Made by a program: the position numbers and the translations under genes
Notes under the pieces: model-generated
Databases searched by the model: none
Told to the model about the DNA's origin: nothing
The model's input: the letters and a program-made list of their open reading frames with translations, nothing else
In this document: one piece after another, positions 10,425-61,145 of the stretch
Numbering within the stretch: the first letter of the stretch is position 1
Layout of the letters: every line of letters starts with the position of its first letter
DNA from: Ascidia mentula
Taxonomy: Eukaryota; Chordata; Ascidiacea; Phlebobranchia; Ascidiidae
Direction of reading: 5' to 3'
NCBI GenBank assembly: GCA_947561715.1
Contig: OX387203.1
Span: 5,208,001-5,272,000 of the forward strand
Length of the DNA stretch: 64,000 nucleotides

Positions 10425-13400
10425 ATGGAAAAAACTGACAACGACAACTTCTTGCCCCTTCCCATTCACACGGCGCTACAACAAGAAGTTGCTGTTGTTC
10501 CGGATGGTACAACTTTTAACGATGTTGCCAGGAAAATTGTGGAACGAAACGGGGGAAAGAAGGTCAGTTTAACAAATAATAGTAATACATAGATTAGCAA
10601 TAGGCGCAAGATACCACTTTTATAAAAGTGACTTGCAGCTCACCTTTCAGTCTAAAATGGTAGTATCAGTGGGTTTGAACGAACATTGGCGTTGATCGCT
10701 ATTATTTCTATTATTCTCTTCTAAATTTTGAGGACTTCGACGAAAGCTTTCTTCTTGGAGATTTGGGAATTTTGGTCGAACAATTCAAACTATTCAAACA
10801 GGAACTGCCCGGGGTGGAAATTTTTTATGCAATAAAGGCAAACGCTCTTCAACCCGTACTAAGTACATTTGCAGCTTTAGGATGTGGATTTGATGCAGCC
10901 AGCAAGGTAGGTACCACTTATTTTAAAATACAATTTTCTACGCAAAAAATAAGCAAACAAATGCGATTTCTTGAATATTCCTCAAATCTTAATCTTTCAG
11001 TTCAGTTTATTCCGCAAAACAAAATTAAAAGCGTACAAATAGTTACCAATTCGATTTAAGATCGTTTTGTTTGGTTTCATGGCCCACATCTTTCATGTCC
11101 TGACTCATTTACAACCGTCTGTCTTGGTATGTCAGTGCGAAATAGACATGGCTCTTAAAACTGGAGTCCAGCGGGATAAGATCATCTACGCAAATCCCTG
11201 CAAGTTCGCATCGCATATTTTACACGCACGTGAGAATGACGTCACAATGACAGTGTTCGACAACGAAGAGGAATTGTTGAAAATGAAGAAGTTGTTTCCG
11301 AACTCAAAGTAAGTTGTACTTCATCTGTTCGATCGTTTCATTCAAAGATGTACTGAAGAACACAACAACGAATCTTTATTGTAAAGTAAATTAGAAAACT
11401 GTTGCACATTTAATACATAATCAACACCCACACCAATTGTTTCTTATAAACAAACAAGAAATGCACGATTAGTGATATGCCACATATCTGACATGTCTTC
11501 TTAGTGGAGTTAAACAAGAAGGCTGGATGGCAAATTTTGTTTTAAGTACAAGAGCTATATTGCGGTCAAAGTGACTTATATTCACTGTAGACTTGTTCTG
11601 AGAATCGAGACCGATGACGCAACCGCAAGATCACAGTTTAAAGGAAAGTTTGGAGTTGAACTTGACACAGGAAAGAAATTAATCAAGAAAGCAAGAGAAC
11701 TGGACCTTGACGTCATTGGGATAAGGTAAAATTAAGACATGGTGATTAAACAACCTTCTGTGTCCATTTTCAAACAATTGACTAGCTGGATAGACACAGA
11801 AATAAGCAATATACCCAATGATATTTTAGTGATCTACATCATTGTTTCGACCTTGTGAGTTTCACCAGTGTAGCTTTGGTGAGACTTCCAACCATCTTGC
11901 ATACCAAAGAGTCTATTCTTGCTTGCCTATTTAGTCGAAAAGATCATTGAAAGCCACACCAAAGCAGCACATTGGAATGTTTGAATCGTCAAGCCTCAAC
12001 ATGTCAGCATTCCTGGCATATTTTGCCCTTCAATTTCTTCCATTTCTGCTGAGATAGATTCTCGCCAAATGTTAAAAATCTATTTTCTCCAGTTTCCACG
12101 TCGGTAGCGGTTGTCCAAGTGATGATTCCTACAGAAAGGCGATAGAGGATTCGAAACAACTTTTTGACTTTGCTCAGGAAGTTGGTTTTGAGTTTAAACT
12201 TCTCGATATTGGTGGGGGATTTCCCGGAAGCGAGGAGGCCGAAAACATTATGCCGTTTGAAAAGGTTTCTGATTATGATTTCTATTTCTATTTCGATTAA
12301 CAGTGAAGCTAGTCATGTTTTTCCCGGTTTCAGTCGATTTTCCCATACCACTGCAGCGTGTTTATCTTCTATAGCAGTAGTTCTCAATCTTTTTGTGGTC
12401 GGAGACCTTTTTTTGTTTGCGGATCTCCACTAAAATTTACCCCTTTGCAAAACATAGTGTTTGTAACGAAGCAAGTTCTGTATTCAAAAAATGGTGCCAG
12501 ACAGTGGTAAGGAAAAATCAGTAATCAAAATTAATTTTAAATATGAATAGAAGGGAGATAACAACACCTGCGTTTTCACTGACCCCGGTTTGGGGACCAC
12601 AACATCTCTATTTCTTTTTTATATCGCAAGACGGCGGCAGTCATACGCGGGAATCTCAAAAAACATTTTCCCGCATCAAGCGGTGTGAGGATAATATCGG
12701 AGCCGGGGAGATACCTCCCAGGACCAGCGTTCGAGGCTGTCACAAACATTTTCGCCAAGAAAATTGAGCAAGGTGTCTAGTTCTTGGGGCAACAAGATTA
12801 ATATTTATTTGTCCAACAGTTCTTAGCTTCAAAAGTTCTTAGCGCAAAATGCTTGGCGTACATAACCTTGCATTAGAAGGCCAAAGCTTGGATGGTGGCG
12901 TGTTTAAGCGGACTATTTAAACACACCAGTTGTGTTTATCATCAGTGCTATTACAGTCTATTCAGCCAGTTTAGTAACATCACTGATGATGAACACAGCG
13001 GTCTATTTGAAACGTCTGTTTAATTGCGTCCCTAGTATCCCAGCTTTCTGTTTCAAATTGCTTAGCCTTTTTTTATTCGTTATTTGAAAATGTAATCATA
13101 AATTGGAATTATTTATGTTTGCTTAACTATTAACTTGCTGACAGCAACTATGCTCTTGTGTTTCTGTGATTGTTGAAATCTGTTGTTTTTTTGTTTTTTA
13201 AAACATATGTTTGTCTCCAGATCACGTTTATTATTACGTTGGGGAAAGTATTTACATGAGTTTTACTTACACTTTTATGGAAAATTTTTCCGCCTTTCCA
13301 CAACCATTGCAGGTGCGTTGCGGTTTTATGAAAACAAAATTAAAACAAAAATTACTATAAATATACTTTAAATAAAATGTGCAAAAAATAATCCAACAAG

Positions 13401-18037: not shown

Positions 18038-18205
18038 GTGACCTGCAGATATAGGATCACTGTTTCGACCTTGTGAGAGTCAACAGTGTAGCTTTAGTTC
18101 GACTTCCAACAATCTTCTATCATCTATCAAATAGCCTATAGTCTTGCTTGGCTAATCATCCGGGAAGATCGCTGAAAGTCACACCAAAGCGCGGAATGTT
18201 TGAAT
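18038..18205 (-). repeat. Hammerhead-like repeat, ODC-like B intron 4
   Basis: Minus strand: GCTACA, CTGTTGA, a loop, CAAGGTC, GAAACAGTG, then a CTGCAGGTCACTAAAAC flank, the same flank seen in the 28.2-kb copy. It corresponds to 11829-11985 in copy A. Confidence 0.6.
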
Positions 18206-25707: not shown

Positions 25708-28700
25708 TTAATTAAGGCAACAGAATAAAAACACATCAAAAATGGCATAATGCTTGAATGCAATCAACCAAGCTAACAGGGTGCACAGCATGGTGAATAC
25801 CAAACAAATGAAACAAGAATAGCCAAACACTACAATTTGAAGACATGCTTTATGAAAGAAACAAATATGACAACACAAGCTAAAACTGTAATTTCTATAC
25901 AGCAGAAGTGTTTACTAAGAATATTGTTACCAGACCACGGTGCACAACATTGTGTTGGAATTTACGTCACTTGCTTTGTCTATTTGATTTGTAGAGGTAG
26001 TTTGTCATAAGTATAAACATTACTCAGAAGTTGTTGTGTATCATTAATTCAGTACCATATACAATAGCATGGAGTCAAGAATATAAATTCTGTGAGTTGC
26101 ACACAGATGGCCACTGTTTTGACCTATAAGGTCGCATCAGTGCAGCATGGTGTGAATTTAAGGTCAAAACAGTTGGCAATCTGTATGCAGCTCAAAGAAT
26201 GAATCAGTACCAATAGACAGTTGGCCAAAAACCAGAAATAATGCCAAATTTTCAGGCCACTCATTTCTTTACCCATGGCATTATGCAATACAAGATGAAT
26301 TAACAATACCAGCAATAAAAAAATGTTACAATGTCACAATTTTACTTGCATAAAGTTACAAGTGAACAAGTCATGATATTTTATAAACAATTTTTACTGA
26401 ACAAAATCTTTACGAAGACTGATTAAATGGAACATCATTGCAAGTGGGGTCTTAGTTAATGCTGTAACACACTGACATACTTATTTAGATGTGATTTATA
26501 AAAAGCCAACATACAATTACACCAAGTTGATGACCTTCCCCCGTTGTAGCGTTGTCCAAAATCTGGCTTAGTTGTTTTTGTTCTTTTTGAAAAATTTCAA
26601 TGTCGAACGCACAATTTTGGTAAACCAGAAAATGTTTAAACAGTCCATCGCCATTCCACACAGGATGAGGTACTGCAAGTTTCCAGTCCTGATGATTAAA
26701 AGTACATGTGTAAAAATATTTTTTTTTTAATTTTAAGGTTTTAAAAACACACAAATAGTATTTCGTCATGTTAGGAGAGGAGTGTGCAATATTAGGCGGG
26801 ACAAAAATACCAAACCAGAGTAGACCCTGGGTTATATTCACATTTGGAATGACAGGAATAAGAATATAACTCTTACGATTTTTAGGCAAACTAAGTGATG
26901 AAAAGCAGGGAGTAAATTCTTTTTTTGAATATGAGATTATGTTGCAAAAACGATAGTCTTTCACAGTCTACAAAATTATGTTCTGCAGGTTACACATTGA
27001 TGTGTAAAGGAGAGAAACACAATCCCTAAACACACAAGACACAAGAGCTAGTATGGCAATGGTGGCATATAAACTGCAAATCACACTAAAGCAATACACA
27101 TCATTAGCAATTTAAGAAGTTCTATGGCAAACTGTTGCAAAAATATTGCATAGATTATATTCTACAAGCTTAATCAATTCTATTTACATATGTGTATATA
27201 CTTACTTTTGTACCTCACCATAGTAGGTGATAAAAATGAAATACATATATGGTAGTACAGCTATCCTTGACAAGAAAAACATCGCAATAAGCAATATTCC
27301 ATTGGTGACATAGGTAACACCACTATTCACTTTAGCTTGAACCATAAACCACCTAAAATAAAAACAAACATGGTTAAACAGCAAATCACTACTATCTATT
27401 TTGTAATATTGTCCAGTTTAACTTGTTTACAAACGTAATTTGCATTGACCAAGGGCCAAAGTCCACTAATGTTTATTGCCAATAAATGAAGTGTGTAATT
27501 AAGAAACATTGGACAAGATATAAACCTAAAAAACTTAAGACGGTTCCAACACAAAACACAAATTAAAGCTTACCTCATGTTAACAAATGGAGTTGACCAT
27601 TCCGATAAATATCGGACCATCACCAGATGCAAAAATACACTGTATTTCTAAACATAACGTTGGGATAGAGTTCAATATGTGGATAAGAACAGATTTTTTG
27701 TTATTGTGAGGTACAAATACAAAATAACAGGTTTAAACTTCTACATTCAAGAGCCATCAGGTTATAAAGTTACAAAAGAACACCCAACATAGTACCCTGC
27801 TCCTTTAGAATATTATATATGTTATTGAATTTGCTTCATATCTCAGCTGTTTGACAATGCTTTCCATTTATAAAGGAAGAATACATCTACCATGGTGAAC
27901 ATATTATTGGCTCATAATGTTTTTGTAACGTTAAAAAAACCAACAAACATGCAGATAAAATTGCAATAGAAATAATAGAAAATCAAACTTCAAATAAAAT
28001 GCCTTACCAAGCAAGCCATCACAACTATTGAGTTGCCGATATGATGAAAAATATCAAACCAGTAACCATTGTATTTTTGTGAAAGGTAAAACACCATCAA
28101 ACATGTGTCTGTAAACAATACGGGGAAGAACATGTAAATACAGTGTATGCATACACAATTATTTGATAGCATTGGAGTCAATATTATGTTTTGAGTGACC
28201 TGCATAGAGGACCACTATTTCGACCTAATAAATTTTTTTAGTGCAGCATTATTGACTATACGACAATATTGCCTGCCAAACAGCAAGGCAAAGACTCCCA
28301 CTTTGTGGTGACTTTTAAATACTTATATTTATACTGCTCACTTAAGAAAAATTTTCATATCATGACTCAAATCAATATTATGCTTTTTAAGTGGTTCCAA
28401 AAAAGAGTTTAAAAGAAACAACTAAAAAAAACGCAAAAACAACTTTCGTAGACAAAAAAAAATAATACCTGCAACAAAATACCCTGTGTTAATTGAAGCA
28501 ACGGCCTCTGCTCCCCAAAAATGGCTCCTAAAACAATCAGTGGTTACCATTCACAAATATTAAATAGCATAATAATGTGGAGGGTATATATAGAATTGAA
28601 AAAAATGTCCAGATTTGAAAAAAGACATATACTGTTCACTTTTGTAAAAATTAATTGGCAATCCAATTTATTGAAAAAAATTATACAGAAAACATTTGCT

Positions 28701-29118
28701 AATCTGCACTATCAAAGATCGCCCCAACACAAATTTATCCAAGCAAATTCTTTCCAATCTGGGATAACATTAGATGCAGCACACATATATAAACGAACTT
28801 ACCATATTGGATTTCCAAAACTTTCTTGGTTAACCAACAAAACGACAGTGCTTAAAATTGCAACAAGTGCTGCATGAATTGTTGAAACAAACCTGTACCA
28901 AAAGAAAACCTTTTACTATAAATCTGAACCCAATAATTTGCTTATCAGCATAAATCTTACCTTGTGTCCCATTCTTGTTGCTTTACTCTTGGTGCCTGGC
29001 TGTAGGCTTTAAAGTTATGCGAGACGACATTGCTTAGAATAACTCCGAATACTGAGCAAAACACAAAGCTGCCGAAGGCAATCCAAAAGTTAAAAGGGAT
29101 TACACTAAGAATGTCCAT
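25708..29118 (-). CDS. TLC-domain membrane protein, TLCD4/TMEM56-like (copy 2)
   Basis: Exons 28961-29118, 28803-28892, 28469-28527, 28008-28108, 27574-27647, 27206-27352 and a proposed last exon 25708-25879, giving 266 residues. Internal exon lengths 59, 101, 74 and 147 are identical to copy 1 at 22308-24060, proving common descent. It starts MDILSVIPFNFWIAFG. The TLC motif is FDIFHHIGNSIVV and the downstream segment is STPFVNMRWFMV. The last exon (hydrophobic, QIVVFGYSCFICLVF) is chosen because it keeps frame and is positionally similar to copy 1, but its first residues are diverged, so its acceptor is less certain. The long last intron contains a hammerhead-like repeat. The same cautious function applies as for copy 1. 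Confidence 0.85.
26090..26245 (-). repeat. Hammerhead-like repeat, best-preserved three-stem copy
   Basis: Minus strand, in order: CCATGCTGCA, CTGATGC, GACC-TTATA-GGTC, AAAA, CAGTGGCCATCTGTG, then TGCAAC. The two GACC/GGTC arms form stem II and the CAG...CTG near-palindrome forms stem III. GCTGCA before the core can pair partly with TGCA after it, giving a type I hammerhead layout. Two core bases deviate (CTGATGC; AAAA for GAAA). It is located in the last intron of TLC copy 2. Confidence 0.6.
28195..28330 (-). repeat. Hammerhead-like repeat copy in TLC copy 2 intron
   Basis: Minus strand: AATGCTGCACT, an A-rich decayed CTGATGA region, ATTAGGTCGAAATAGTGG, TCCTCTATGCAGGTCAC. The GAAA, the outer pair CTGCA/TGCAG and the GTCACT flank are conserved; the 5' core is decayed. 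Confidence 0.55.
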
Positions 29119-29504
29119 TGCTCTTTGTGACAACTGTAATGCAATAAAATGCTACACAATGTTAAGAAAAAAATGGTTATACTATTACTAAGAAAAAAAT
29201 GATCAATTTGAAAATACCCCAAGAACCTTGCATTTTATTGTTTATTTTTTAACCGTTAGCACAGCAAAAACTTAAAACCTGCAAAAAATGACAATTTTCA
29301 AACGTAGTCCAACTAAAAGCAAATTTTACATTCGTCCAATTTCTGCTACGTTTCCTGGCGATTATTTCGCAGGCCATGTGACTCTGTACGCAATGGGGCA
29401 TGACTATACGCTAAAAAACAAACAAATAGAAAAATAGAACGTATAATTTTTCCAAAAGAACATCTTAAACCAAGTATAATGTACAAGTTGCTTTATCTTA
29501 GGAG
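29119..29504. other. Upstream region of TLC copy 2
   Basis: AT-rich; presumably promoter and 5' UTR. No further motif is identified. Confidence 0.35.
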
Positions 29505-29990
29505 AATTGTTCAACGAAAAAAGCATAAGCCTTGTGGCAACACGCATGTTTTCCCTGGCCTAGCTCTGACCACGACGCATATTTCCTGAAACTCATCACT
29601 GGAACAACAGACAGAAAGAACGCAAGCGGTGTTAAGCTTTCTTGCAAGATTTTCCACAAGCTTTCTGGCATCCTGCTGGACAACATATTTTTTTGACACT
29701 TCGTTATAAAACGCCCATTTTGTAATCCTTGGACAGTCTCTCGAGCCTGCTATTTCTAGCCATCGCGCTGTGACGTTCGCACGTTCTTTTCATAGTAATT
29801 CACTGCAATCCAGTCACGTGATAAACTCTACTTAAACACGCTTGGAACAAATTTAACTTTACACCGCCTGGCATTGCAAACGTGTGTTTCCATTGATAAA
29901 AAAGTCTGGTCACGGAGTTTTAAAAACAGTAGTCTTGTACAGCAAGAACACGCAAGCAGACTTTAGTTTCAGCACAGCAGCAAGCGGAAT
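29505..29990 (-). repeat. Duplicated segment with possible coding remnant
   Basis: Partner of 8548-8985. On the minus strand a frame runs from about 29735 to 29511 and contains TKWAFYNEVSKKYVVQQDAR, then KLNTACVLSVCCSS and ICVVVRARPG. In the other copy the first part is conserved (TWAFYGDVSANTYVVQQ), but the frame is lost. A splice-acceptor-like AATAGCAG precedes it. I recognise no family. It may be an exon of an unknown gene or a repeat-borne peptide. Confidence 0.45.
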
Positions 29991-30514
29991 CAATTGGTAC
30001 GCTGCAGCCTCTTAGTGTCGCAAAAAACATGTAGGGGAAGGTCGTTCACAGCTTTTGGGACACTTCAACACATTTAAACAATAGTACTAAATTAAAACAG
30101 CTGGGTGGTCCCTTCAGAGACATCAGCTTAAACCAATCTACAGTCCTTTGGCTTCTTGTGAGAAAGATATTTTCGCCGAAGCGTTGTACAATTTCAAAAT
30201 GAGTTCAGAGTATTTCGGTAAACGCACTGCAAGTTCTCGTAAAAACGTCATAAAATCAATCATCCATAATGTAAAAGTGCGATATATGAAAACCAACTAC
30301 TTAATTATAAAATGGTCCACGCCCCGATTACCCAAATAAGGCATACAACTGTTTCTTCGTTGCAATGACCAACCACATGGACGATAGACCAAATATAGCC
30401 TACAAGCTCCTTTTTCCCTTCCATTTTGTACGCCCGGTATTTGTTTCATACTAACTATACCTCTAGCTATAGTGAGTACGGTAAAGTATTTGGGTCATTC
30501 GTGCAGCATAATTA

Positions 30515-30640
30515 TGTAGCTCAGTTCATATAAGTGAACGTGGAGGCAATAACATGAAGTCGGCCGTTAGGTCAGTCAAAATCTTGTGGGTCGAAACAAT
30601 GGCCATCTGTATGCAGCTCACAAAAAAGCCTACTTGTTTA
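30515..30640 (+). repeat. Hammerhead-like repeat copy, 3' half preserved
   Basis: Plus strand: GTGGGTCGAAACAATGGCCA, then TCTGTATGCAGCTC. This copy keeps GAAA, the stem III arms around TGGCCA and the GTA|TGCAGC strand that would contain the cleavage site. The CTGATGA half is not recognisable. Confidence 0.5.
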
Positions 30641-37820: not shown

Positions 37821-38624
37821 AAACAAAAACATGGTCAATGTAAATAAGGGAGTGAAGCACAATACGTGACTCTTCTGCAATGAATAACTTGCGTTCACAC
37901 AATTTGGAAAAAAATGTATGAATCTGTGCTTAATGTTAATGTTTAATGTTGTTGACAAAATAGGAATTTTTCTGTTTATAAATTAGGGAAATGTAAAACA
38001 GAGCCTAAAGTTCAATTTTACACTTTGTAGTCTACGCGCCACTGGATAAGCTTGTGGAACGCTGCACTACTTAGTGTGTCGTAAAATATAATGAACACTG
38101 AAGATTTATATGTGGTGGTTTTAACCTGTTGTAAATAAACCAATTTTAACTGGCAAAGTTCATTTCAACATTTTATTGACAAGGATGTAAGTGAAGCGAT
38201 CAAATTATTCAGAGAGGACAATTGAGGCGACCAATAACATGTCTAGCACTAAAAAATGCTGCAGTGTGGCAAACAAAAGAGTTGTGGTAAAGTTTAATTC
38301 TGTTTGTGAAGCGTGTTGCAGCGTGGTCACTCCCTTGCTCATTTTGTTTTGGTATTTAATTTAACTATACGTAGTAGCATGACAACAAAAATGCGTGACG
38401 TAAATTTTCTGAGAACTTAAGCCAAGCGTGATTGGACCTAAATATGTAAATGGTAACCGGCTTATTTTGCCGTCAAGGGGAAGTGAAGCCATCAACAATT
38501 TGAGAAACGTTTTGGCAAATTTGCTGGTGTACGTGCCATTATCTGCCACGAACTTTACTGTTCTGTCGGTGTTGGAGCGTAGCACACATAAATAAAGTTT
38601 ATTGTCGGCTTTGTCCTAAAAATA

Positions 38625-39431
38625 ATGGCACAAGATTCTGTAGGCATTGATTTGGGTTGTTTTAAATCCAGGGACGGTCTGTACTGTACGATACTTTTCG
38701 TAAGTATGGAAATATTTATGCCATTTTTAATTACTTTGTATAATAAAGTTTTGTGCAGATACTCAGCCTTATACTTGTCATCTTGTGTTCTGCCAGCAAC
38801 TATTGGCAATATGGTGAATCCTATAAGATGGGCTATGTGAGCTTTTCCAGTGCATACAGTTGTGTAACCCTACTGTTCATTGGATTCATGTACATTTTCA
38901 AGCTCTACAATGCATCAATATGTGCTTGCCTGCCATGGAAACTACTGGTTGGTGATAAAAGTCAGAAAAATTAAATGGACTACAATAAAAAACTAAGTAA
39001 ACCTGTATGTCATAAAAACTCACATTAATTTGGGCTACATTTGTTTGTTTGTAAATTTAACTTATTTTTTTAGGAGATTGGAAATTGCTTTCTATCTGCA
39101 ATTTTTCATTTCATTGGTATGGCCATCTCTGCAGCTGTAGCAGCAAAATTTTTGAATTATCACATGTATGGCACATTTGTGGCTTGTGCGGTAAGAAAGT
39201 GACGACTAAAATTGATGTGAAACAGTGCTACAACATGACATGTTCCGACGAAATTTTGTCTACTTTAGTATTTGTCACAGCAATTTGCAAGTATGATCGA
39301 ACACATGTAATGCTTTACAGATTTTTAGCACCATTATCATGCTAGTGTATTTGGCACATGCAGTGATGATAATTCGGTCGGGTGAAGTCAGAATGGTGAA
39401 GGAAAGAGACACCACAAATGTTCCAACCTAG
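38625..39431 (+). CDS. Four-helix MARVEL/CMTM-like membrane protein, copy A
   Basis: Exons 38625-38699, 38759-38947, 39074-39190 and 39321-39431, all phase 0, 163 residues. The start is MAQDSVGIDLGCFKSRDGLY. Four hydrophobic stretches follow: LILVILCSAS, AYSCVTLLFIGFMYIFKLY, FHFIGMAISAAVAAKF and IIMLVYLAHAVMII. The size and four-helix layout with a short N-terminus are typical of MARVEL-domain proteins (MAL, plasmolipin, CMTM families), which act in membrane apposition and vesicle trafficking. Family assignment is by topology and general pattern, not a diagnostic motif. A read-through of exon 2 into VGDKSQKN and stop is an alternative 3' end conserved in copy B. Confidence 0.75.
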
Positions 39432-39983
39432 TTTCCCAAAGCTTCATTTTAAAGCATAGTTTTCATGAGCATGACTTTTTACATTTTATTGTATATTTCA
39501 AAAGTACTAAACTTGTCAACATATTATTTACAACAGGTTGCATTTCCAAAACTTGTCTGCTTTGTTTTTGTTTGTAATTTTACAACTTTTCGCAGTGCAT
39601 TTAATTTTTTACCTAATGTATGTTGTTTCTTTACAATTATGTAATTACATATAACAATTTTATATCAATGGTTTGTTATTGTTTAAAAATTATGTAATTT
39701 TTTTTAAAACTGCAAATCCTGTAGTTGAATGTTCTGTGTTATTCGTTTTTTAGTACTTTTTGTTGGATTGTCATTCTACTTGCCTACACAACAAACCAAC
39801 TAAACAACTTTTGTAGCACAAATGCAATTGTCTTTTATATTGTTTGCACTACAGGTTTAAACCTATTGGAATTCACAATAAACCATCCTATGCACAGAGA
39901 ACTATTATAATAAGCATGACAAAAAAAGAGTCACGGACAAAACAGTTCCCAAATTGCAACAAATCGCCAACAGTACATGCAAG

Positions 39984-40463
39984 TTAAAAAATGTCAAATG
40001 TATGTGTAAATGGGCCGTTCGTATCCACTTTCAAAACTTGCAGGTTACCGTAAGTTCCACTTTTTACAGTCCCACTATTAGAATTCAAGGCATTTGACAA
40101 CGAGGTTATCAGTTTTTGATATAACTTATAACCAAGTTGCTTGTCAATGTTATTATGATACTGCATGGTTTTTCCTTTTAACTTTCCACCTAAAGTTGCT
40201 TGGGGCACTAGAAGAATGTCACCGTCTATATCCCTTAATGACACGAGTTTTCCTTCGACATTGCGACTAAGTTTAACGTTGGTGATAACATTGCTAATTT
40301 TTTCCACGGTTTCTTGGCTGGCTTCTTTTAGAAAGCACACATACGCCACGATCCCACGTCCGATATCCACGAATTCGGCATCTGATACAACGTCTGCTGG
40401 TTTAGTTTGCAAACGTGCAGACAAACACTGCTGCAAAATTAGTTTTACAGTTGCCTGTGCCAT
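39984..40463 (-). CDS. DTD2: D-aminoacyl-tRNA deacylase 2 (DTD2/ATD), copy A
   Basis: Intronless, 159 residues from MAQATVKLILQQC. Aligned by eye with human DTD2: LLQQCLxARLQ, GxVxYVCFxK, NVKLS, PQATLGGxLKG, MQYHxN, and the C-terminal GTYGNxQVLKxDTNGPFTH. DTD2 (animal tRNA deacylase) hydrolyses mischarged aminoacyl-tRNAs, such as L-Ala on tRNA-Thr. The PQATL and NGPFTH motifs set it apart from DTD1. An in-frame upstream ATG at 40535 would add 24 mostly hydrophobic residues (SFLGCFILLLFPWG); the shorter start fits the family better. Convergent with the MARVEL gene. The MULE insertion begins about 280 bases upstream of its start. Confidence 0.92.
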   Translation of the reverse strand: MAQATVKLILQQCLSARLQTKPADVVSDAEFVDIGRGIVAYVCFLKEASQETVEKISNVITNVKLSRNVEGKLVSLRDIDGDILLVPQATLGGKLKGKTMQYHNNIDKQLGYKLYQKLITSLSNALNSNSGTVKSGTYGNLQVLKVDTNGPFTHTFDIF

Positions 40464-40754
40464 TTTATCACAAAATGTGCCCCAGGGAAAGAGCAGCAAA
40501 ATAAAACAGCCTAAAAATGAGGAACTATCAAACAATTACTCTGTTAACAGATCGATCCTTTGAAATAAAATATAATTTACGAAAAAAATAATTTTAGGAG
40601 GGTTTATGAAACTTATTTGTTAATTTTCTAATTCGAATATTTTTTGCTGTAGAAATACTTTTTTGACAACATTTGAATCGTTGTGAACGATATTTATTGT
40701 TTTCACGTTATTTTTTGCTGGTATTGGTGCAAAATTTCCGGTTCCTCTAAATAT

Positions 40755-41512: not shown

Positions 41513-44500
41513 TTATGCTTTTTCTGCTTCTGTGTACTGGCACTTTACCACTCCATAAATCATTGTAACTAGTTCTGGGAGCTTCAATTGTTTCCGTTCA
41601 GATTTTATCTTTAAAACATGGTTTATGCTTTCTGCATAGTTGTTGGACCATCCTAAGTCAACTTTTAACCTTGGTTCCCAAACTTTTTCTTTTAGAAGTG
41701 GCAAGAATCTGCAACTCAGATAGGTGTGAAGAGTTGATGGATATTTTTCCATAAATCCATGCAGCATTCTTGTTTTTTCTTCCTCGAACTCTATTTCATC
41801 AACGGATAAAAGTAAGTTAAACACTTCATCAATTATTTTGTTTCTTTCTGTATTATTTAGGCCAATTTTGTCGGACATGTAATGCTGTAAGTTTTGCTTT
41901 AAATGCCTTGTACACAAAACATGCACTGCATTTGGAAAAGCTTCCATGATGGCATGGTGCAAGGCCTTCTCGTCATCTGTTCCGAAGATAATGTTGTCGT
42001 TTTTTAATGCAAACTTTAGCGTTTGGAAAAATTCCAGGTAAGTTTGAGTGTCAGACCTTGTGTGGAGAAAAACTGGTCCAAGAAATAGTGGATGCTTTTG
42101 GGTTGAATTCCGAGTTAATGAAAGATTTTGGTGCACAGTTGTTGTAAGAAATGTTTTCCCTAAATTAAATGTTTTATCCACACACAGGACAGCTTTGGAA
42201 TTACAGCAAAACCTATTTATATCTAAAATTTGTTCTTCTGTGTAACAAATTATTGAAATTGGGCGTCCCTTGTAATTTTAAACCTTCTGAACAAATTCAT
42301 GTGTCTGGGCCATGTCAATTATTTTCATCACCTCCTCACTGTAATTGCTAGTTTTAACTGAAGTTGGGTCTTTTTGCTTTATTAGATTGTACTTTGTATT
42401 ATATATTTGCTGCAAATTCCTTGGCATTGATGTTAGATGATCTGTATTTTGCATTTTTTCATCGTATATATTTTTGGCAGTTTTCAGTGGAACTTCTTTG
42501 CGGAGCTCATCAACAACTTCTGGACAAGTCCGAATGTAGTTGCTCTGATTTGTTTTGCTATTTCCATGGGGTATTTGGAACGGTTGATTTCCTTTGTATT
42601 CAACCAGGTATAATGGTATCACTTCGTCATTTCCATAATATTCCAAAAATGATATTCTGCGCTTGTAGTTAGTATTATTGCAATGGGAGCCAATAAACTT
42701 GTTCAGTTTTATCAAGTTTGATTTCATTGGCTGTGGTTCTAACTGGTGATATTTGTATTCGGGTGTGGTTTGTTTGGTGCACATTTTGTTTCTATATTGA
42801 TACAGCTGCTTGAAACCATTCCTTTCAAAATAAGATGAGAAATAGGATTTTTTTTTCCATGCTCCACAGTCATCCCAAAACTTGTTTTTGAACCCTAGTT
42901 TCTTTCGCTGAATGTTTTCTGTGTTTTGTATGACTAAATAACAATTTTCTTTTTTTCCGAAAGGTATGCTTGCAAGTCCAGTTGTTGTTTTGTTTGTCAA
43001 AAATTGTAGAACCTTATGGGTGGGCAGAAATTCATTGCATTCCAGTTTGCCTTCGTTAGTTTTTGAAATTGTTTCTTCAAAAGAATCAGATGTTGACTTT
43101 TTAGGATTTGAATTTTCCTCATTTGCTTTTAGATCACCAGGAGTAAAAGAGTCTTGATTTGCTTCATTTTCTGTTGAATCAAACCAAACTGATTTCGAAT
43201 TTTCCTTTTTTATGCAATTGGGTAAAATGTTAAGACCAGATTTATTTTTATTTATTTTTTTATTTTTGTCCATTATTTCTTCTGTGTCTGTTGTATCCGA
43301 TTCTGAATTTTCTCTTTTGTTTGCAGTTGATGAATTATGCGAAATGTTAAGATCAGATTTATTTTCATTTGTTGACTCTAAGGGATCTGGAATATCTGTA
43401 GTAGAATCGAAGCAAACAGAAGAAGGTGGTTCTGGTATAATTTTTTCTGACTGAGTTTTACAAGGAGATATTAAGTTTACATTGCTTTCTGAACCTTCCT
43501 GTTTAATTGGTTTCAGACAGTATCCTGTTTTGGGGTTTACTTGCTCAGAATCTACATCATATTCTATTTCAAGATCGTATTGATTGACCACTGCACAAAA
43601 ATGATTTGGAGTCCAAATTTTTCCTTTTGTTTCTTGTGCAATTCTTGTCCACATTATATAAATTATTCCATTTGAACATTGACCAATTGGTGAGAATGTT
43701 TTATTTAACATGGTATACACTTCATCCTCTGGTCCATTGCATTTGGGGTAAATGGAACGTATATCCATTGCTATTGCATCACAAAGTGCCATTATGGTCC
43801 AGGTAGAAGAGTAGCCACCATCTACAATACAGTCCTTAACGGACTCCCAGTATTCTGGAGATATAAATTTCCAGTTTTGTGCTAAAATGTTTGTTTCATA
43901 TTTTTCTGCATTACAGATCATATTTATGGCACTCCTTAATCGAAGTTCAGTTGCTAAAGACTCATCACCTGCAAGTCCTACAGAAACTGCATTGAATAAG
44001 CAGTTTCCATCTGGAGTTGTTCTTGCTGCAACTTTGGATTTATAATTTGGTAAGTCTTTTAACAGAACATTTGAGTGATTATCCAAATTTATGCTGTTTA
44101 TCGCCAACTGTTTGTTTGTAAATGTATGATTGAAGTTTTTCAGAAGCAAATCCTCTCCCTGTGCTTTTTTGATCAATACATCTTCACTGAAACCACACTG
44201 AAACATAAAAAAACTAAATAAATAACTCTCCTAAGATTGTCAAGATGTTGTTTTATGACCTTTTTCTGCACATCTGCCAAAGTGTATACTTATGTATCAT
44301 GCTATGCTAAAAGTCTTCACTTATTTTTTAGTGCATTCTGGTACTTTTCTTTAAAACTGTTATGTCTGCTGCTAACCTTTATGCTAATTCACTAAAATAG
44401 CTTACAGTGACAAACATGTGATTTTAAAACACAAATATCATGTTGTTACAGTGCCAAGTCTTCTAAGTGACTGTTTGTAATTGAATCCTCTACTTCCTGC

Positions 44501-45537: not shown

Positions 45538-46873
45538 GGCTGTAACGTTACGGCTAACATAGGTAAGCGTCCAAGATCAGTAAACTGGACAAAATCGGTA
45601 ACCTAAACACGTGACTGCAGCGGCAAACAGGGAGGGTACATATTTTCATCTAAGGGGGGTAATTGAAATCATTTACTTTAAACATTGCACTGTGTCCACG
45701 ATAGGTAACTTTGTTATACGTTAGAGTAGTCACGCTATACCTTGTACTATGCCCATGATAGGTAAGTTTGTTAAACGTTAAGGTAGTCACGCTATACCTT
45801 GCACTATGTCCATGATAGGTAAGTTTGTTAAACGTTAAGGTAGTCACGTTATACCTTGCACTATGTCCATGATAGGTAAGTTTGTTAAACGTTAAGGTAG
45901 TCACGCTATACCTTGCACTATGTCCATGATGGGTAAGTTTGTTAAACGTTAGAGTAGTCACGCTATACCTTGCACTATGTCCATGATAGGTAAGTTTCTT
46001 AATTGTTAGGGTAGTCACGCTATACCTTGCACTATGTCCATGATGGGTAAGTTTGTTAAACGTTAGAGTAGTCACGCTATACCTTGTACTATGTCCATGA
46101 TAGGTAAGTTTGTTAAACGTTAAGGTAGTCACGCTATACCTTGCACTATGTCCATGATGGGTAAGTTTGTTAAACGTTAGAGTAGTCACGCTATACCTTG
46201 CACTATGTCCATGATAGGTAAGTTTCTTAATTGTTAGGGTAGTCACGCTATACCTTGCACTATGTCCATGATGGGTAAGTTTGTTAAACGTTAGAGTAGT
46301 CACGCTATACCTTGCACTGTGTCCATGATAGGTAAGTTTGTTATACGTCCAGGTAGTCACACTATACCTTGCACTATGTCCGTGATGGGTAACTTTGTTA
46401 AACGTTGAATAATTAACGAACTTACCTATGATGGACATAGTGCAAGGTATAGCGTGACTACTCTAACGTTTAACAAACTTACCTATCATGGACATAGTGC
46501 AAGGTATAGCGTGACTACCCTAACAATTAAGAAACTTACCTATCATGGACATAGTGCAAGGTATAGCGTGACTACTCCAACGTTTAACAAACTTACCTAT
46601 CATGGACATACTGCAAGGTATAGCGTGACTACTCTTACGTTTAACAAACTTGCCTATCATGGACACAGTGCAAGGTATAGCGTGATTCCCGTAACAATTA
46701 ATGAAGTTACCTATCGATGACGCAGTACAGGTTAAATGATTTCAATTACTCCCCTTGGATGAAAATATGTACCCTCCCTGTTTGCCGCTGCAGTCACGTG
46801 TTTAGGTTACCGATTTTGTCCAGTTTACTGATCTTGGACGCTTACCTATGTTAGCCGTAACGTTACAGCCCTA
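45538..46873. mobile_element. Foldback element with 57-bp tandem repeats in its arms
   Basis: Outer inverted repeats of about 115 bases (45538-45655 and 46756-46873; GGGCTGTAACGTTACGGC and its complement) are nearly perfect. Inside, about 12 tandem copies of a 57-bp unit (GGTAAGTTTGTTAAACGTTA to CTATGTCCATGATA) fill the left arm (about 45690-46400), and about five copies in opposite orientation fill the right arm (about 46420-46720). The whole forms a long palindrome. Because 57 is divisible by three, it yields a spurious 262-codon open frame. It lies directly beside the MULE right end. Confidence 0.9.
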
Positions 46874-47028
46874 TATGATATTTAGAGCAGGGTTGCCACT
46901 TGCCAGATTGGCGCTTTCGGCGCCAAATTCCCTGAATTTGGCTTTTTTCCATTTTGTCTGGCGCCCAAAATTTGGTTTGGCTTATTTGGCCCTTTTCTGG
47001 CGTTTTCCTGTTAGCTAGAGCAACCCAT
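46874..47028. other. Linker between foldback element and block B
   Basis: Contains GCAGGGTTGCCACTTGCCAG and TTGGCGCTTTCGGCGCCAAA, the latter a short palindrome. Part of it faintly resembles 52530-52600 (GCAGGATTGCCAAACTGCGC), perhaps a repeat remnant. Confidence 0.35.
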
Positions 47029-47113
47029 TATCTGCCACGAACTTTACTGTTCTGTCGGTGTTGGAGCGTAGCACACATTAATAAAGTTTATTGTCGGCTT
47101 TGTCCTAAGAATA

Positions 47114-47925
47114 ATGGCACAAGATTCTGTAGGCATTGATTTGGGTTGTTTTACATCCAGAGACGGTCTGTACTGTACGATACTTTTCGTAAGTATGGAA
47201 ATATTTATGCCATTTTTAATTACTTTGTATAATAAAGTTTTGTGCAGATACTCAACCTAATACTTGTCATCTTGTGTTCTGCCAGCAACTATTGGCAATA
47301 TGGTGCAACCTATAGGATGGGCATTGTGATCTTTTCCAGTGCATACAGTTGTGTAACCCTACTGTTCATTGGATTTATGTACATTTGCAAGCTCTACAAT
47401 GCATCAATTTGTGCTTGCCTGCCATGGGAACGACTGGTTGGTGATAAAAACCAGAAAAATTAAATGGACTAGAATAAAAAACTACTAGTAGGCCTAAATC
47501 TGTATGTCATAGAAACTCCCATTAATTTGGGCTACATTTGTTTGTTTGTAAATTTAACTTATTTTTTTAGGAGATTGGAAATTGCTTTCTATCTGCAATT
47601 TTTCATTTCATGGGTATGGCCACCTCTACAGTTGCAGCACAGGAATATGTGAATCATTACTTATATGGGACATCTGTGGCTTGTGTGGTAAGAAAGTGAC
47701 GAATAAAATTGATGTAAAACAGTGCTACAACATGTCATGTTCCGATGAAATTTTATCAACTTCAGTATTTGTCACAGCAATTTGCAAGTATGATCGAACA
47801 CATGTAATGCTTTACAGATTTTGAGCATCATTATCATGCTAGTGTATTTTGTACATGGATTGGTGATAGCTAGGTGGGGTGTCACAATGGTGAAGGAAAG
47901 AGACACCACAAATGTTCCAACCTAG
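47114..47925 (+). CDS. Four-helix MARVEL/CMTM-like membrane protein, copy B
   Basis: Exons 47114-47188, 47248-47436, 47571-47687 and 47818-47925, 162 residues, intact. The first two exons differ little from copy A (SRDGLYCTILF, NYWQYG, SAYSCVTLLFIGFMYICKLY). Exons 3-4 have diverged: MATSTVAAQEYVNHYLYGTS, and YFVHGLVIARWGVTM in place of YLAHAVMIIRSGEVRM. The tail MVKERDTTNVPT is identical. This suggests relaxed or diversifying change in the last two helices. Confidence 0.75.
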
Positions 47926-47944
47926 TTTCCCAAAGCTTCAGTTG

Positions 47945-48775
47945 AAGGACGCATATTGGTATTTCTATGAAAATTGGTTTTGGTGCTGGGAAATGCCCAC
48001 CGTGTAGACCTGTGTCACAATGCAAAGTCATGCATCACCAAGCAAAGCAGTGACGCAATTAAGTTAAATTTACAGTTGAATGGGCGCACATGTGCGTGCT
48101 GTTGTCATGGCGAATTTTAAGGTGTTTGGGGCAGTTTTAGTGTGGTTTTGAGCTATTCCAATTAGGTAGTAACTTGGTGGTGGGTGCTGCTGAAATTTAT
48201 GTTGAAAATGGAGCAAAAAAATCAGGCTGTGTTTGTGGCAAAATGAATCGTTTAAGTGTCCAATCATTTGTGATTTTATGAAAGATCCATTTCATATCTA
48301 CAAATTTTGATCAAAATTAGTCTCCGAAAAAATGGTTTAGCCACCCCCCTAGGGCCATTTGCCCCCCTGGTTACTCAATATTTTGGTTAAAAGAGCAACC
48401 AAAAATGGAACTGGATTTTGCAGAAAAATGAATCGTTCAACTACCCACTCATTTGCATTTTTTTGTAAGTTCCAACTCTTCTCTATGCGATGGCATCAAA
48501 TTTAGTTGCTGAAAAAGTGTCAATGCCCTCCCCCAAGGGCTGGGTATACCCCCCTGTTGGTCATATGATCTTCCAGGAGGCCCAAAAAGTCCTTGCTCTG
48601 TACAGTCTCATCCAGGAGCAATTTTTTTTTTTTCAACTTTGTAGAATTCCAGGTCCCTATGTAAGTCACAAGACCCATCAACGGTCATTGGGAAACAAGC
48701 GGAACAGTCGCTAGATGCATTACAGCCGAGGGCCTTGAACACAGGATTTCTCCTATCTAATACCCATATAGGTCC
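47945..48775. other. Block-B-specific segment (insertion, or deletion in A)
   Basis: About 830 bases missing from block A, where CCCAAAGCTTCATTTTAAAG replaces it. No terminal inverted repeats, coding frame or target duplication recognised. Internal phrases such as GCCCCCCTGG / CCACCCCCCTAGGG and repeated AAATGAATCGTT (about 48242 and 48427) hint at an internal duplication of about 180 bases. Confidence 0.5.
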
Positions 48776-49295
48776 TTAAAGCATAGTTTTCATGAGCATG
48801 CCTTTTGCATTTTATTGTATATTTCAAAAGTACTAAACTTGTCAACATATTATTAACAACAGGTTGCATTTCCAAAACTTGTCTGCTTTGTTTTTGTTTG
48901 TAATTTTATAACTTTTCGCAGTGCATTTAATTTTTTACCTAATGTATGTTGTTTCTTTACAATTATGTAATTACATATAACAATTTTATATCAATGGTTT
49001 GTTATTTAAAAATTATGTAATTTTTTATAAAACTACAAATCCTGTAGTTGAATGTTCTGTGTTATTCGTTTTTTAGTACTTTTTGTTGGATTGTCATTCT
49101 ACTTGCCTACACAACAAACCAACTAAACAACTTTTGTAGCACAAATACAATTGTCTTTTGTATTGTTTGCACTACGGGTTTAAACCTATTGGAATTCACA
49201 ATAAACCATCCTATGCACAGAGAACTATTATAATAAGCATGACAAAAAAGAGTCACGGACAAAACAGTTCCCAAATCGCCAACAGTACATGCAAG

Positions 49296-49775
49296 TTAAA
49301 AAATGTCAAATGTATGTGTAAATGGGCCGTTCGTATCCACTTTCAAAACTTGCAGGTTACCGTAAGTTCCACTTTTTACAGTCCCACTATTAGAATTCAA
49401 GGCATTTGACAACGAGGTTATCAGTTTTTGATATAACTTATAACCAAGTTGCTTGTCAATGTTATTATGATACTGCATAGTTTTTCCTTTTAACTTTCCA
49501 CCTAAAGTTGCTTGGGGCACTAGAAGAATGTCACCGTCTATATCCCTTAATGACACGAGTTTTCCATCGTCATTGCGACTAAGTTTAACGTTGGTGATAA
49601 CATTGCTAAGTTTTTCCACGGTTTCTTGGCTGGCTTCTTTTAGAAAGCAAACATACGCCACGATCCCACGTCCTATATCCACAAATTCGGCATCTGATAC
49701 AACATCTGCTGGTTTAGTTTGCAAACGTGCAGATAAACACTGCTGCAAAATCAGTTTTGCAGTTGCCTGCGCCAT
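49296..49775 (-). CDS. DTD2: D-aminoacyl-tRNA deacylase 2 (DTD2/ATD), copy B
   Basis: Intronless, 159 residues, differing from copy A at only a few positions (MAQATAKL for MAQATVKL, EKLSNV for EKISNV, RNDDGK for RNVEGK). All family motifs are intact (PQATLGGKLKG, NGPFTHTFDIF). The same upstream in-frame ATG exists (49847). It is divergently paired with LSM12, with about 520 bases between starts, and so may keep the original shared promoter. Confidence 0.92.
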   Translation of the reverse strand: MAQATAKLILQQCLSARLQTKPADVVSDAEFVDIGRGIVAYVCFLKEASQETVEKLSNVITNVKLSRNDDGKLVSLRDIDGDILLVPQATLGGKLKGKTMQYHNNIDKQLGYKLYQKLITSLSNALNSNSGTVKSGTYGNLQVLKVDTNGPFTHTFDIF

Positions 49776-50297
49776 TTTATCACAAAATGTTCCCCAGGGA
49801 AAGAGCAGCAAAATAAAACAGCCTAAAAATGAGGAACTATCAAACAATTACTCTGTTAACAGATCGATCCTTTGAAATAAAATATAATTTACGAAAAAAA
49901 TAATTTTAGGAGGGTTTATGAAACTTATTTGTCAATTTTCTAATTCGAATATTTTTTGTTGTAGAAATACTTTTTTGACAACATTTGAATCGTTGTGAAC
50001 GATATTTATTGTTTTCACGTTATTTTCTGCCGGTATTGGTGCAAAATTTCTGTTGACCCAGTTACAGGTAGAAGCGAAACTTTCGTTAAAACATACTTTT
50101 TTTTACAGACTTTTAGCAGCACAAACTAGCATTAACTGATGCTAAGCTGGTATAGCTGTGGCTACGGGTTTTATATTACACGTGGCCGTCACATCTTTGG
50201 CGTTCTGAAAAATTGAGACCAACTTCTGATGTAAATCAATGCAAGTTTGCTAACGGAGTAATTGCTGTCGTAAAAAATTCGAATGCAGGATACGGCG

Positions 50298-58700: not shown

Positions 58701-61145
58701 GGGGAAGAGCCCTTCAAAAACGTTATGCCCTTATTTGGTTGCAGCGTGCTCAAATGTGGTTTCGATTTAATGCCAAAATTGTGGCCTAATGTCGAATGGT
58801 GATGGCCTGTGTGTCTGACTGATTATCGCGCACAATTGTTGCCCACTTTTATTGTCTATTGTTGGACTTCAACGTTTTCTTTCCGCCGCCAATCACAACC
58901 CAGAACTAAGTTGTTCCGTTTATAAGTATCGTTTTTGCCAACTTTAGTACCCTGTACAAGCACATGCGGTACATTTGCGGCGCATAACTACACATGTTCC
59001 ATCTGGTCGGGTTGTAGTACAAGCTACGTAAGTTTGCATAGAACATCTGACGTGGTGCGTTACGCTGGTTGACCTGACGTGTGATTGGTGAATAAAACGA
59101 AATTTGTTGATAACCGATGTCGTGCCCTCCTTTCATGTAAATTGATTTGGGTTGAGTGTAGTGGGTAGTATTCTGTTTTACACTCAGTGAACGTTGTCAG
59201 TCAGCGTTTTGTACACAACCACGTGCATGAACAGTGGTTTAAAAGCCCAACATTGAAAGCAGGGTGAAGATGCTGTCTTAGGTATAGTATTGGTCATGTA
59301 CTCTTAAAATGTTTTTACATTTGTTGTCACAACATGTTCTTTCCTTTAACCTTATCTAACCATGGTTGGTGCAGGATGTAGTGGGCCTCGGTTGGTGTTA
59401 GTACAGCCTTCGAGAGACCAACTTGTTGCACGTAATGTCAAGTTGCATTTAATGCTCTATATACAAGGTTGTATTTGACCTAGGAACTTACGGTGCCCAT
59501 TGGATGCATTGCACAGGGCTAATCAGGGTTAAGCAAGTGCTTTGTGTGCTTGTAGTTACTTATAGGGCAGTGATCGCCAGGTTATCAATGGTGTGCAGTT
59601 GTGGTTTATACCCACGCATTCAATATCAGAAGACATATTTGATAAATGTACGTTAATGTTTATGCAGAAATTTATTGATATTTTTCAACAAGGCTATGAG
59701 GAAGGTATAATGCGAGCGAAGAAACCTAAGTGGTCACAAATAAGTGGATTTGTCAGGCAAAAGTCTTAAAAATTCCTGATGTGGTTCCTTGGTAATAGAA
59801 GGTTTGACAGGTGTCGTAGTTGATTTTATGCACCCATTATTGACCGTTTGGTCAGCAAAGTCGTCTGAAAGTCACACCAGCTGCACCGATGAGACCTTTT
59901 TAGGTCGAGGTCAGTGGACCCTATTGTACCATTTGCGATTTCATTTTTAAGCTTCGGAGGGAGGCTGTTTTAATTGAACATTGCCCATGGATGACCAGAA
60001 ACGTCCTCACGAGTCGCTTCGGCGGCAATATCTGCTGTCTTTAAATAAAGTTTTGATTTTGATTGTTTTTTTTTACCTAATTATAAATAAATTTGGTTTT
60101 ATTCCTCCTGGAAAAGGTTGTTGCTCACTTTCAAGGTTTTGTGATTATTTAAAGTTGGTTGGTGTAGCACTTTACTTTATACAACGCATTCAATCCAGCT
60201 TTTTTCGTTTTCCTACGCATAACCGTTGACTCTGACAGTTATAAACTGCATCTATATTGAGTTGCTTACTTGCTGTTTCGGTTCCCGTGCTTTACTTGGT
60301 GAATCAGTTAGTTTCCTTTCAAGATAAGCAAAGTCGGGTATTGAATCATCTTCCTCCTGGTAAATGAGAATGGTCAGTAACTGAAACTCACAAAGACAAT
60401 TAGGATTTCTTAAGCCTCGGTTAGTTATGATTCTCCACCTAATACGACAGGTGTGTGTATTTTCGTAAAATAACTTGTATGCTTACAGAGTGGAATAGTA
60501 GCTACAATTTAACTATACTCACCAGCAGACTAGCATTCAGTTAGAACAGCAACCAACGCATTGAATCATTACCAGGAGCACTTGTGTGGTCTAGTTTCTA
60601 TTCCTAAATTCTCGCGCCAAATGTACAGCTAAGGTGCAGCCAGTTTGTTATGCAACAGGTTGGCAGGGGTGTTGATCCGTGCATTTGCAAAGATTTAACC
60701 AATTTTTGTCTATTAAGCTGTTAATTTAATTAGACAAATGGATTTTTTGTGCAATGCTGCCCACATTGCAACCACGGTGGTATAAAGTGTTCCGGATATA
60801 GTGTTTGCTCCTCGATCGGCTATGCTTTAAAACTGGTTGACGGTTTTTGTGTTTGAAAAGTGATGTTGAAGTCAATTGTACTAGTGATTGCCTTTAGCAT
60901 TCAATTATGTTGCAATTTTTGAATCGTGGTAAATTTGCAAGCATTCTTTGCGTGACGAGACGTCCCTGGTCGACTGCCAGTGACAGTAGTGCTACGTATT
61001 TCCGTCTACACGCGAGTCACGGTTGATCTAAACAGAGGCTTTGTTTTCTAGACACAAAGATAAGGTATAGGCCGGTAACAACTTGAATCACACTCATATA
61101 GGACACGACATACCTGCACCATGACAGTCTAAACTAAACCGAAAC
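52702..61145. other. 8.4-kb stretch without a recognised gene
   Basis: The first few hundred bases are LSM12 3' flank. The rest contains scattered open frames up to 126 codons with no recognised similarity, one (TA)n tract near 52335-52370 in the LSM12 intron side, and a hammerhead-like repeat at 59835-59940. It may contain distal regulatory sequence or 5' UTR exons for the 61146 gene. Confidence 0.4.
59835..59940 (+). repeat. Hammerhead-like repeat copy, core preserved
   Basis: Plus strand: AAAGTCACACCAGCTGCA, CCGATGA, GACC-TTTTTA-GGTC, GAGG, TCAGTGGACCC. Stem II is perfect and the 5' flank AGCTGCA is the family's stem I strand. Core deviations are CCGATGA and GAGG for CTGATGA and GAAA. Confidence 0.6.

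Follow-up and report, generated by a model that had tools for sequence, protein, structure and literature searches.

The 64,000-nucleotide stretch of the Ascidia mentula genome analysed here (the window; contig OX387203.1, positions 5,208,001 to 5,272,000 of the forward strand) holds worn members of a family of retrozymes, non-coding repeats with the layout of a type I hammerhead ribozyme. Copies elsewhere in the genome, which was searched over 195.8 Mb, display an insertion anatomy for which we found no earlier description. Most of the analysed insertions have a head-to-head layout in which an inverted arm precedes a direct one, and one of their two outer ends lies a short distance and the other a long distance past the hammerhead cleavage site. 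Taking three retrozyme-like families (A, D and B) and three Penelope-like elements (PLEs) together, 44 of 48 elements keep this rule and none has two ends of the same kind. The literature we covered on retrozyme and hammerhead inverted repeats, head-to-head PLEs and both-strand priming, with subscription journals mostly uncovered, reports no fixed short/long pairing per insertion.

Paired outer ends and the arms between them

For family A, 40 places were scored and 39 analysed (C1:354146 was left out). Thirty of these loci are head-to-head, six have a single arm and three are complex, with arms ranging in length from 0.1 to 5.9 repeat units. Of the first 100 exact hammerhead cores listed, neighbours no more than 1.5 kb apart form 21 pairs, 10 in −/+ orientation, none in +/− and 11 on the same strand; the same-strand cores are 284–286 nt apart and once 570 nt. 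Perfect target-site duplications (TSDs) measure 12 bp in 19 family A loci and 13 bp in 8; five further loci have perfect duplications of other lengths, four have duplications with a mismatch and three have none. A flank-swap control, made for family A only, used a stricter scan: in 29 of 39 loci the longest word shared by the two flanks was 12 nt or more, compared with 1 of 1,482 mismatched flank pairs.

Outer ends were placed using the TSDs. Measured from the cleavage site, those of the 29 family A head-to-head elements counted fall 15.4 ± 2.2 or 44.4 ± 2.4 nt beyond it in all elements but one. Read from left to right, 14 elements are short/long, 14 long/short, none same-kind and one other (Fisher P = 5e-8), and the two ends of any one element are 24–35 nt apart in unit position. 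Family D keeps the rule in 7 of 8 scored elements (ends at 6–12 and 38–45 nt) and family B in 6 of 8 (22–37 and 60–63 nt), all eight of the latter with duplications of 12–14 bp. Counted by eye, all three PLEs keep it as well: their long end lies 27, 33 and 35 nt further out than the short end, and their duplications measure 13, 13 and 12 bp. The four exceptions (L097, L118, L110 and L114) each combine one long end with an end inside the hammerhead, 3–18 nt before the cleavage site, and look as if a third start site existed.

Omitted from this count were, in family A, one head-to-head locus without a detected TSD (L105, whose raw ends of 14 and 50 nt fit the rule), the single-arm loci L065, L073, L086, L094, L102 and L106 and the complex loci L084, L100 and L101; in family D, L019 and L062 (no TSD); and in family B, L041, L043 and L054 (not head-to-head or unscored). 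L120 of family D was counted despite a TSD of 7 bp, and excluding it gives 43 of 47.

We compared the sequence variants of the two arms wherever these had 30 nt or more in common, as they do in 27 elements. Arms of the same element share 40 of 96 variants (Jaccard 0.417, against a permuted mean of 0.074), a value reached in 0 of 2,000 permutations. For the 15 variants that recur in at least two elements, sharing rises to 38 of 43 (0.884, against 0.141 when permuted).

Where the arms meet, their inner ends differ by 0–139 nt in unit position (median 60), a spread not distinguishable from uniform (Kolmogorov–Smirnov P = 0.21). At 24 joints the arms overlap by 0–15 nt, on average 3.0 nt as opposed to 1.5 nt in 300 simulated blunt joins (P = 2e-5); five other joints contain unaligned filler and one has a 21-nt overlap. 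Such joints are what one would expect if both ends were extended independently and then joined at microhomology.

Hammerhead motif, repeat families and Penelope-like elements

An open hammerhead-core pattern matched 497 sites genome-wide, compared with 31 for the same pattern written backwards, and a 35-nt family core with up to three mismatches matched 1,634 sites, compared with none for its backwards control. Intact copies outside the window read GCTGCA, CTGATGA, GACCT–AGGTC, GAAA, ACAG–TGGCCAT–CTGT and TGCAGC in order. Among the pattern matches listed, the dominant family has GCTGCA/TGCAGC as stem I, GACCT/AGGTC as stem II and ACAG/CTGT, closed by TGGCCAT, as stem III. The first-pass annotation, made from the letters of the window, had proposed a type I hammerhead layout, and these full-motif copies bear it out; the genome-wide consensus keeps the core, so the proposal also survives the check that its author had set, a consensus lacking that core. 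The annotated GUA cleavage site occurs in some copies, most having GTC, and the nearly palindromic stem III of the annotation turns out to be a 4-bp stem with a palindromic loop.

At least 13 of 15 stem pairs form in 176 of 209 core parses (53 distinct sequences) taken from loci already selected for the motif, and in none of the reversed letters. Because the stems barely vary between families A and D, with a rare compensatory case (GACCC/GGGTC), covariation is weak; other hammerhead families carry other stems. The Rfam search that the annotation had recommended neither supports nor refutes the motif. It found no hammerhead in the window, either at gathering or at E ≤ 10, and none at gathering in 11 loci. 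The best scores reached by copies outside the window were 26.7 of the 34 bits needed for RF00163 (Hammerhead_1) and 24.7 of 48.5 bits for RF00008 (Hammerhead_3); sub-threshold hammerhead matches also occur in 11 of 14 control genomes. Assignment to type III was considered, the Rfam type III model scoring slightly higher in the 11 loci, and rejected because the open helix is stem I, which makes the motif type I.

In family A, 35 loci contain 64 complete units, measured from cleavage site to cleavage site, of 283–287 nt; the unit of ∼284 nt is non-coding and is also found arrayed head to tail. A 1.2-unit query finds its best matches 92–100% identical across most of their length, so these insertions are recent. 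The unit of family D measures 291 nt and has a body unlike that of family A, and family B differs from both in hammerhead and body alike. For the family B insertion L043, nine paralogous copies of its flanking repeat lack the insert. We had considered family B a fixed-end element and dropped this idea, as the letters show head-to-head arms there too. A further family (L030–L036, hammerhead near 1493–1545) has stem II GACCC/AGGTC and lies inside a repeat of more than 2 kb; six of its seven copies sit on the distal part of contig C69. Read by eye, families A, B and D together with L031 look alike between the two end sites (TTAT..., CTCC, TTTGCAC), the stretch common to A, B and D running TTATNNNCTCC...TTTGCAC. 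This likeness is a possible binding or priming signal.

Judged at the sequence level, the element is a metazoan-type retrozyme without long terminal repeats (non-LTR), a kind already known (PMC7229834). It combines a type I core, three stems and an NUH site with tandem non-coding units of 284 nt (A) and 291 nt (D), inside the 150–450 nt range of such elements, and with TSDs longer than 4 bp, mostly 12–13 bp and backed by the flank-swap control; arms end within the unit, and segmentation shows no LTR pair. The annotation's idea of descent from a ribozyme-bearing mobile element is thereby upheld, on the strength of the intact motifs, the 284-nt tandem units, the TSDs and the near-identical recent insertions.

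One locus close to a hammerhead encodes a GIY-YIG piece, and a protein search for the endonuclease gave 150 scored matches, several of them as −/+ pairs. Three of the 150 were followed up as PLEs (L107, L108 and L109). Their stop-to-stop frames measure 755, 811 and 841 codons, each with a reverse transcriptase (RT) and a GIY-YIG endonuclease in one frame (all Pfam E-values ≤ 0.001, that for the L107 GIY-YIG scored on a 162-aa piece); only the L108 GIY-YIG passes Pfam's own cut-off. Hammerhead-like cores lie near the ends of all three, and all are head-to-head, the inverted part ranging between an arm of 46 bp and a palindrome of 4.6 kb.

Copies and other features in the window

Each of the six places that the annotation had grouped as one family of related repeats gives a match to the repeat unit built from copies across the genome (E ≤ 0.05), and the letter-reversed window gives none. 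The letters of these copies agree with the motif order it described (GCTGCA ... TGCAGC) and with its remark that every copy in the window is incomplete. The copies and associated features are as follows.

26061..26069, no strand: possible worn TSD, left copy ACAATAGCA, read by eye and one base shorter than the right copy
26070..26175, minus strand: inverted arm belonging to an old head-to-head retrozyme insertion of small size, with the longer end type on the outer side, to the left (unit match 26036–26162 and letters; inner limit approximate)
26096..26146, minus strand: near-complete hammerhead, with CTGATGC and AAAA replacing CTGATGA and GAAA (letters)
26160..26209, plus strand: direct arm of the insertion at 26070..26175, with the 3' hammerhead half, a stem I strand and the shorter end type (letters)
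26210..26219, no strand: possible worn TSD, right copy CCAATAGACA, read by eye
28157..28313, minus strand: worn retrozyme copy with upstream body and the longer end type; hammerhead remnant at 28197–28247 (E = 6e-22)
30583..30627, plus strand: 3' hammerhead half with intact GAAAC, CCATCTGTA and TGCAGC (unit match and letters)
59840..59917, plus strand: retrozyme fragment with upstream body, stem I, core (CCGATGA) and stem II, stem III being truncated (E = 9e-20, 91% identity)
11840..11908, minus strand: worn fragment with upstream body and core (E = 4e-5)
18043..18093, minus strand: worn fragment with core and stem III, adjoining sequence duplicated with the 11.6–11.8 kb region (E = 7e-4)

A partial plus-strand copy at 26131 faces a minus-strand copy at 26082, and the pair therefore forms a small head-to-head element; the possible TSD around it (26061..26069 and 26210..26219) was read by eye. 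Between 10408 and 19591 several segments recur at a spacing of ∼6 kb and are 71–98% alike, and the worn copies at 11840 and 18043 occupy matching places in this repeat.

Elsewhere in the window, a 57-bp satellite at 45685–46734 (∼13 + 5 copies) flips orientation near 46410, forming a long inverted repeat; a sub-threshold Rfam match to MIR6135 is this same hairpin. The segments 38536–40535 and 47025–49847 are a duplicated stretch, 91–99% alike, with one open reading frame (ORF) per copy, of which that at 39984–40535 matches D-Tyr-tRNA deacylase. Between them, at 41513–44206, lie ORFs matching a MULE/Mutator transposase and an OTU protease, possibly parts of one DNA transposon.

Proposed insertion mechanism and relation to known systems

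We consider it likely that the target is cut on both strands by a Penelope-type enzyme, which then reverse-transcribes a single RNA from each of the two target ends, beginning at two sites that lie close together. The proposal builds on the motif, the tandem units, the head-to-head arms, the TSDs, the paired ends, the shared arm haplotypes, the excess of microhomology and the anatomy of the PLEs, all directly observed. Tandem copies would be transcribed and the transcript cut by its hammerheads into monomers, which would then be closed into circles. Circular RNAs are known for retrozymes of other animals. A PLE protein with RT and GIY-YIG domains would bind the RNA just past the cleavage site and cut both strands of an AT-rich target with a 12–13 bp stagger, whereupon both target 3' ends would prime on the same RNA, at two start sites ∼29 nt apart. 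Each RT would circle the template, often more than once, leaving an arm of part of a unit or of tandem units at each target end, and once the two cDNA ends were joined at short microhomology, the insertion would be head-to-head, one of its outer ends short and the other long. The template is probably a circle, and presumably a single RNA molecule serves both ends; we infer that a PLE of this genome drives family A. Going one step further from the end pairing, for retrozymes and endonuclease-bearing PLEs alike, we infer with evenly balanced confidence that a pair of RTs, one per cut strand, sits on neighbouring sites of one RNA circle, the two chasing each other around it; a used site would not be reusable, which would leave every complete insertion with exactly one short and one long end.

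A number of observations weigh against this account. The family A loci were selected by long matches, and when the first 100 listed exact cores are clustered within 1.5 kb, only 10 of 79 clusters contain a −/+ pair, 66 being single and 3 same-strand only. Variants confined to one element occur in both arms in 2 cases and in one arm in 51, the arms of L079 have no shared variant, and in multi-unit arms 68 of 121 variant sites differ between units; we read these as later mutations, yet they give no support for a single template. In the three PLEs, hammerhead and tail sequence are both unlike those of family A, and no autonomous PLE with a family A tail was found among these three. Catalysis and circularity are conjectural, and linear multimers could take the place of circles. 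Copies outside the window score 18.7–26.7 bits in Rfam, under gathering, and for three ribozymes folded in isolation the hammerhead is not the best structure (z = −1.15, −1.25 and −0.79), the predicted fold of the first retaining stems I and II and losing stem III. In Anolis, moreover, the PLE hammerhead is dispensable for in vitro insertion. The family hammerhead is presumably active. Amphibian retrozymes whose dimers cut better are reported to have a similarly short stem III and palindromic loop (PMC7229834), and one PLE hammerhead has been described as protein-assisted (PMC11167929).

The alternative that fares best, though we regard it as unlikely, is that a long interspersed nuclear element (LINE) or another non-PLE retrotransposon moves the retrozyme by L1-like twin priming, on one or two RNAs. 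Twin priming of L1 gives inverted arms with microhomology joints. What speaks for a PLE instead is that the three examined here share both the 12–13 bp duplications and the short/long ends ∼30 nt apart, and that a PLE is reported to start internally just past its hammerhead (PMC11167929).

Self-priming, in which a palindrome arises when a cDNA snaps back to serve as its own template or when an antisense RNA primes on itself, has been proposed for head-to-head Penelope elements of rotifers (PMC3846280), and L078 resembles its product, with both inner ends at the same unit position and the 21-nt overlap. We find it decidedly improbable: fold-back would join like positions and the joints do not, only 1 of 30 having inner ends within 10 nt of each other, and it gives no reason for the far end to lie at the other start site, as it does in 28 of 29 elements. 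More improbable still is a chance motif order in an ordinary palindromic repeat devoid of ribozyme function. The near-invariant stems of families A and D and the weak folding z-scores would suit it; however, most intact copies keep all core parts, and A/D, B and the PLEs differ in stems and bodies yet keep the core beside the same insertion sites. Least credible is a DNA transposon of the foldback or MITE-like type, with hammerhead-like sequence present by coincidence in its terminal inverted repeats. It would explain the inverted symmetry and constant TSDs but not arms of variable length built from tandem units, left and right ends that form a fixed pair of different positions, or the single arm of 6 of 39 loci.

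L1 twin priming starts from the poly(A) tail at one end and from an internal position at the other. Its resemblance to two-ended priming by a Penelope-type enzyme lies in both target ends priming the element RNA and in the microhomology at the inversion point; the difference is that here two fixed neighbouring sites are used and the arms are tandem.

Animal non-LTR retrozymes, defined in PMC7229834 with PLEs named as likely drivers, share with the A. mentula elements the type I hammerhead, tandem units that are non-coding and a few hundred nucleotides long, TSDs longer than 4 bp and coexistence with PLEs; the axolotl form, said there to act as dimers, also has a weak stem III and a palindromic loop. 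Most insertions analysed here differ in being head-to-head with a fixed pair of end types, and the word "inverted" is absent from the main text of that paper. This anatomy, beyond coexistence alone, ties non-autonomous retrozymes to PLE-type machinery. It is also more informative than the layout noted from the window alone, and the end pairing gives a genomic signature whose occurrences can be tallied for any animal with a sequenced genome.

The purified protein of the PLE Poseidon_Ac cuts and extends both strands, starting internally at two adjacent sites (PMC11167929). Further likenesses are a hammerhead near the ORF start, a "tail" between the two starts and AT-rich targets. In the portion of that report available to us, the in vitro start sites are given without per-insertion pairing, whereas here each is used once per insertion, and circular RNA and retrozymes are not mentioned. 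Penelope of Adineta vaga (PMC3846280) is likewise head-to-head, with an inverted pseudo-LTR (pLTR), a TSD and a 31-bp tail optionally present at one inverted pLTR; it differs in its TSDs of 8–10 bp, in the hammerhead going unmentioned in the text available, and in being explained by self-priming, probably on an antisense template. The route by which PLEs form tandem and inverted insertions has stood unsettled between the self-priming proposal of 2013 and the in vitro both-strand extension with two internal starts of 2024. Within one genome, three retrozyme-like families and three PLEs alike have their end types paired in a fixed way, which favours priming from both ends on one RNA over self-priming.

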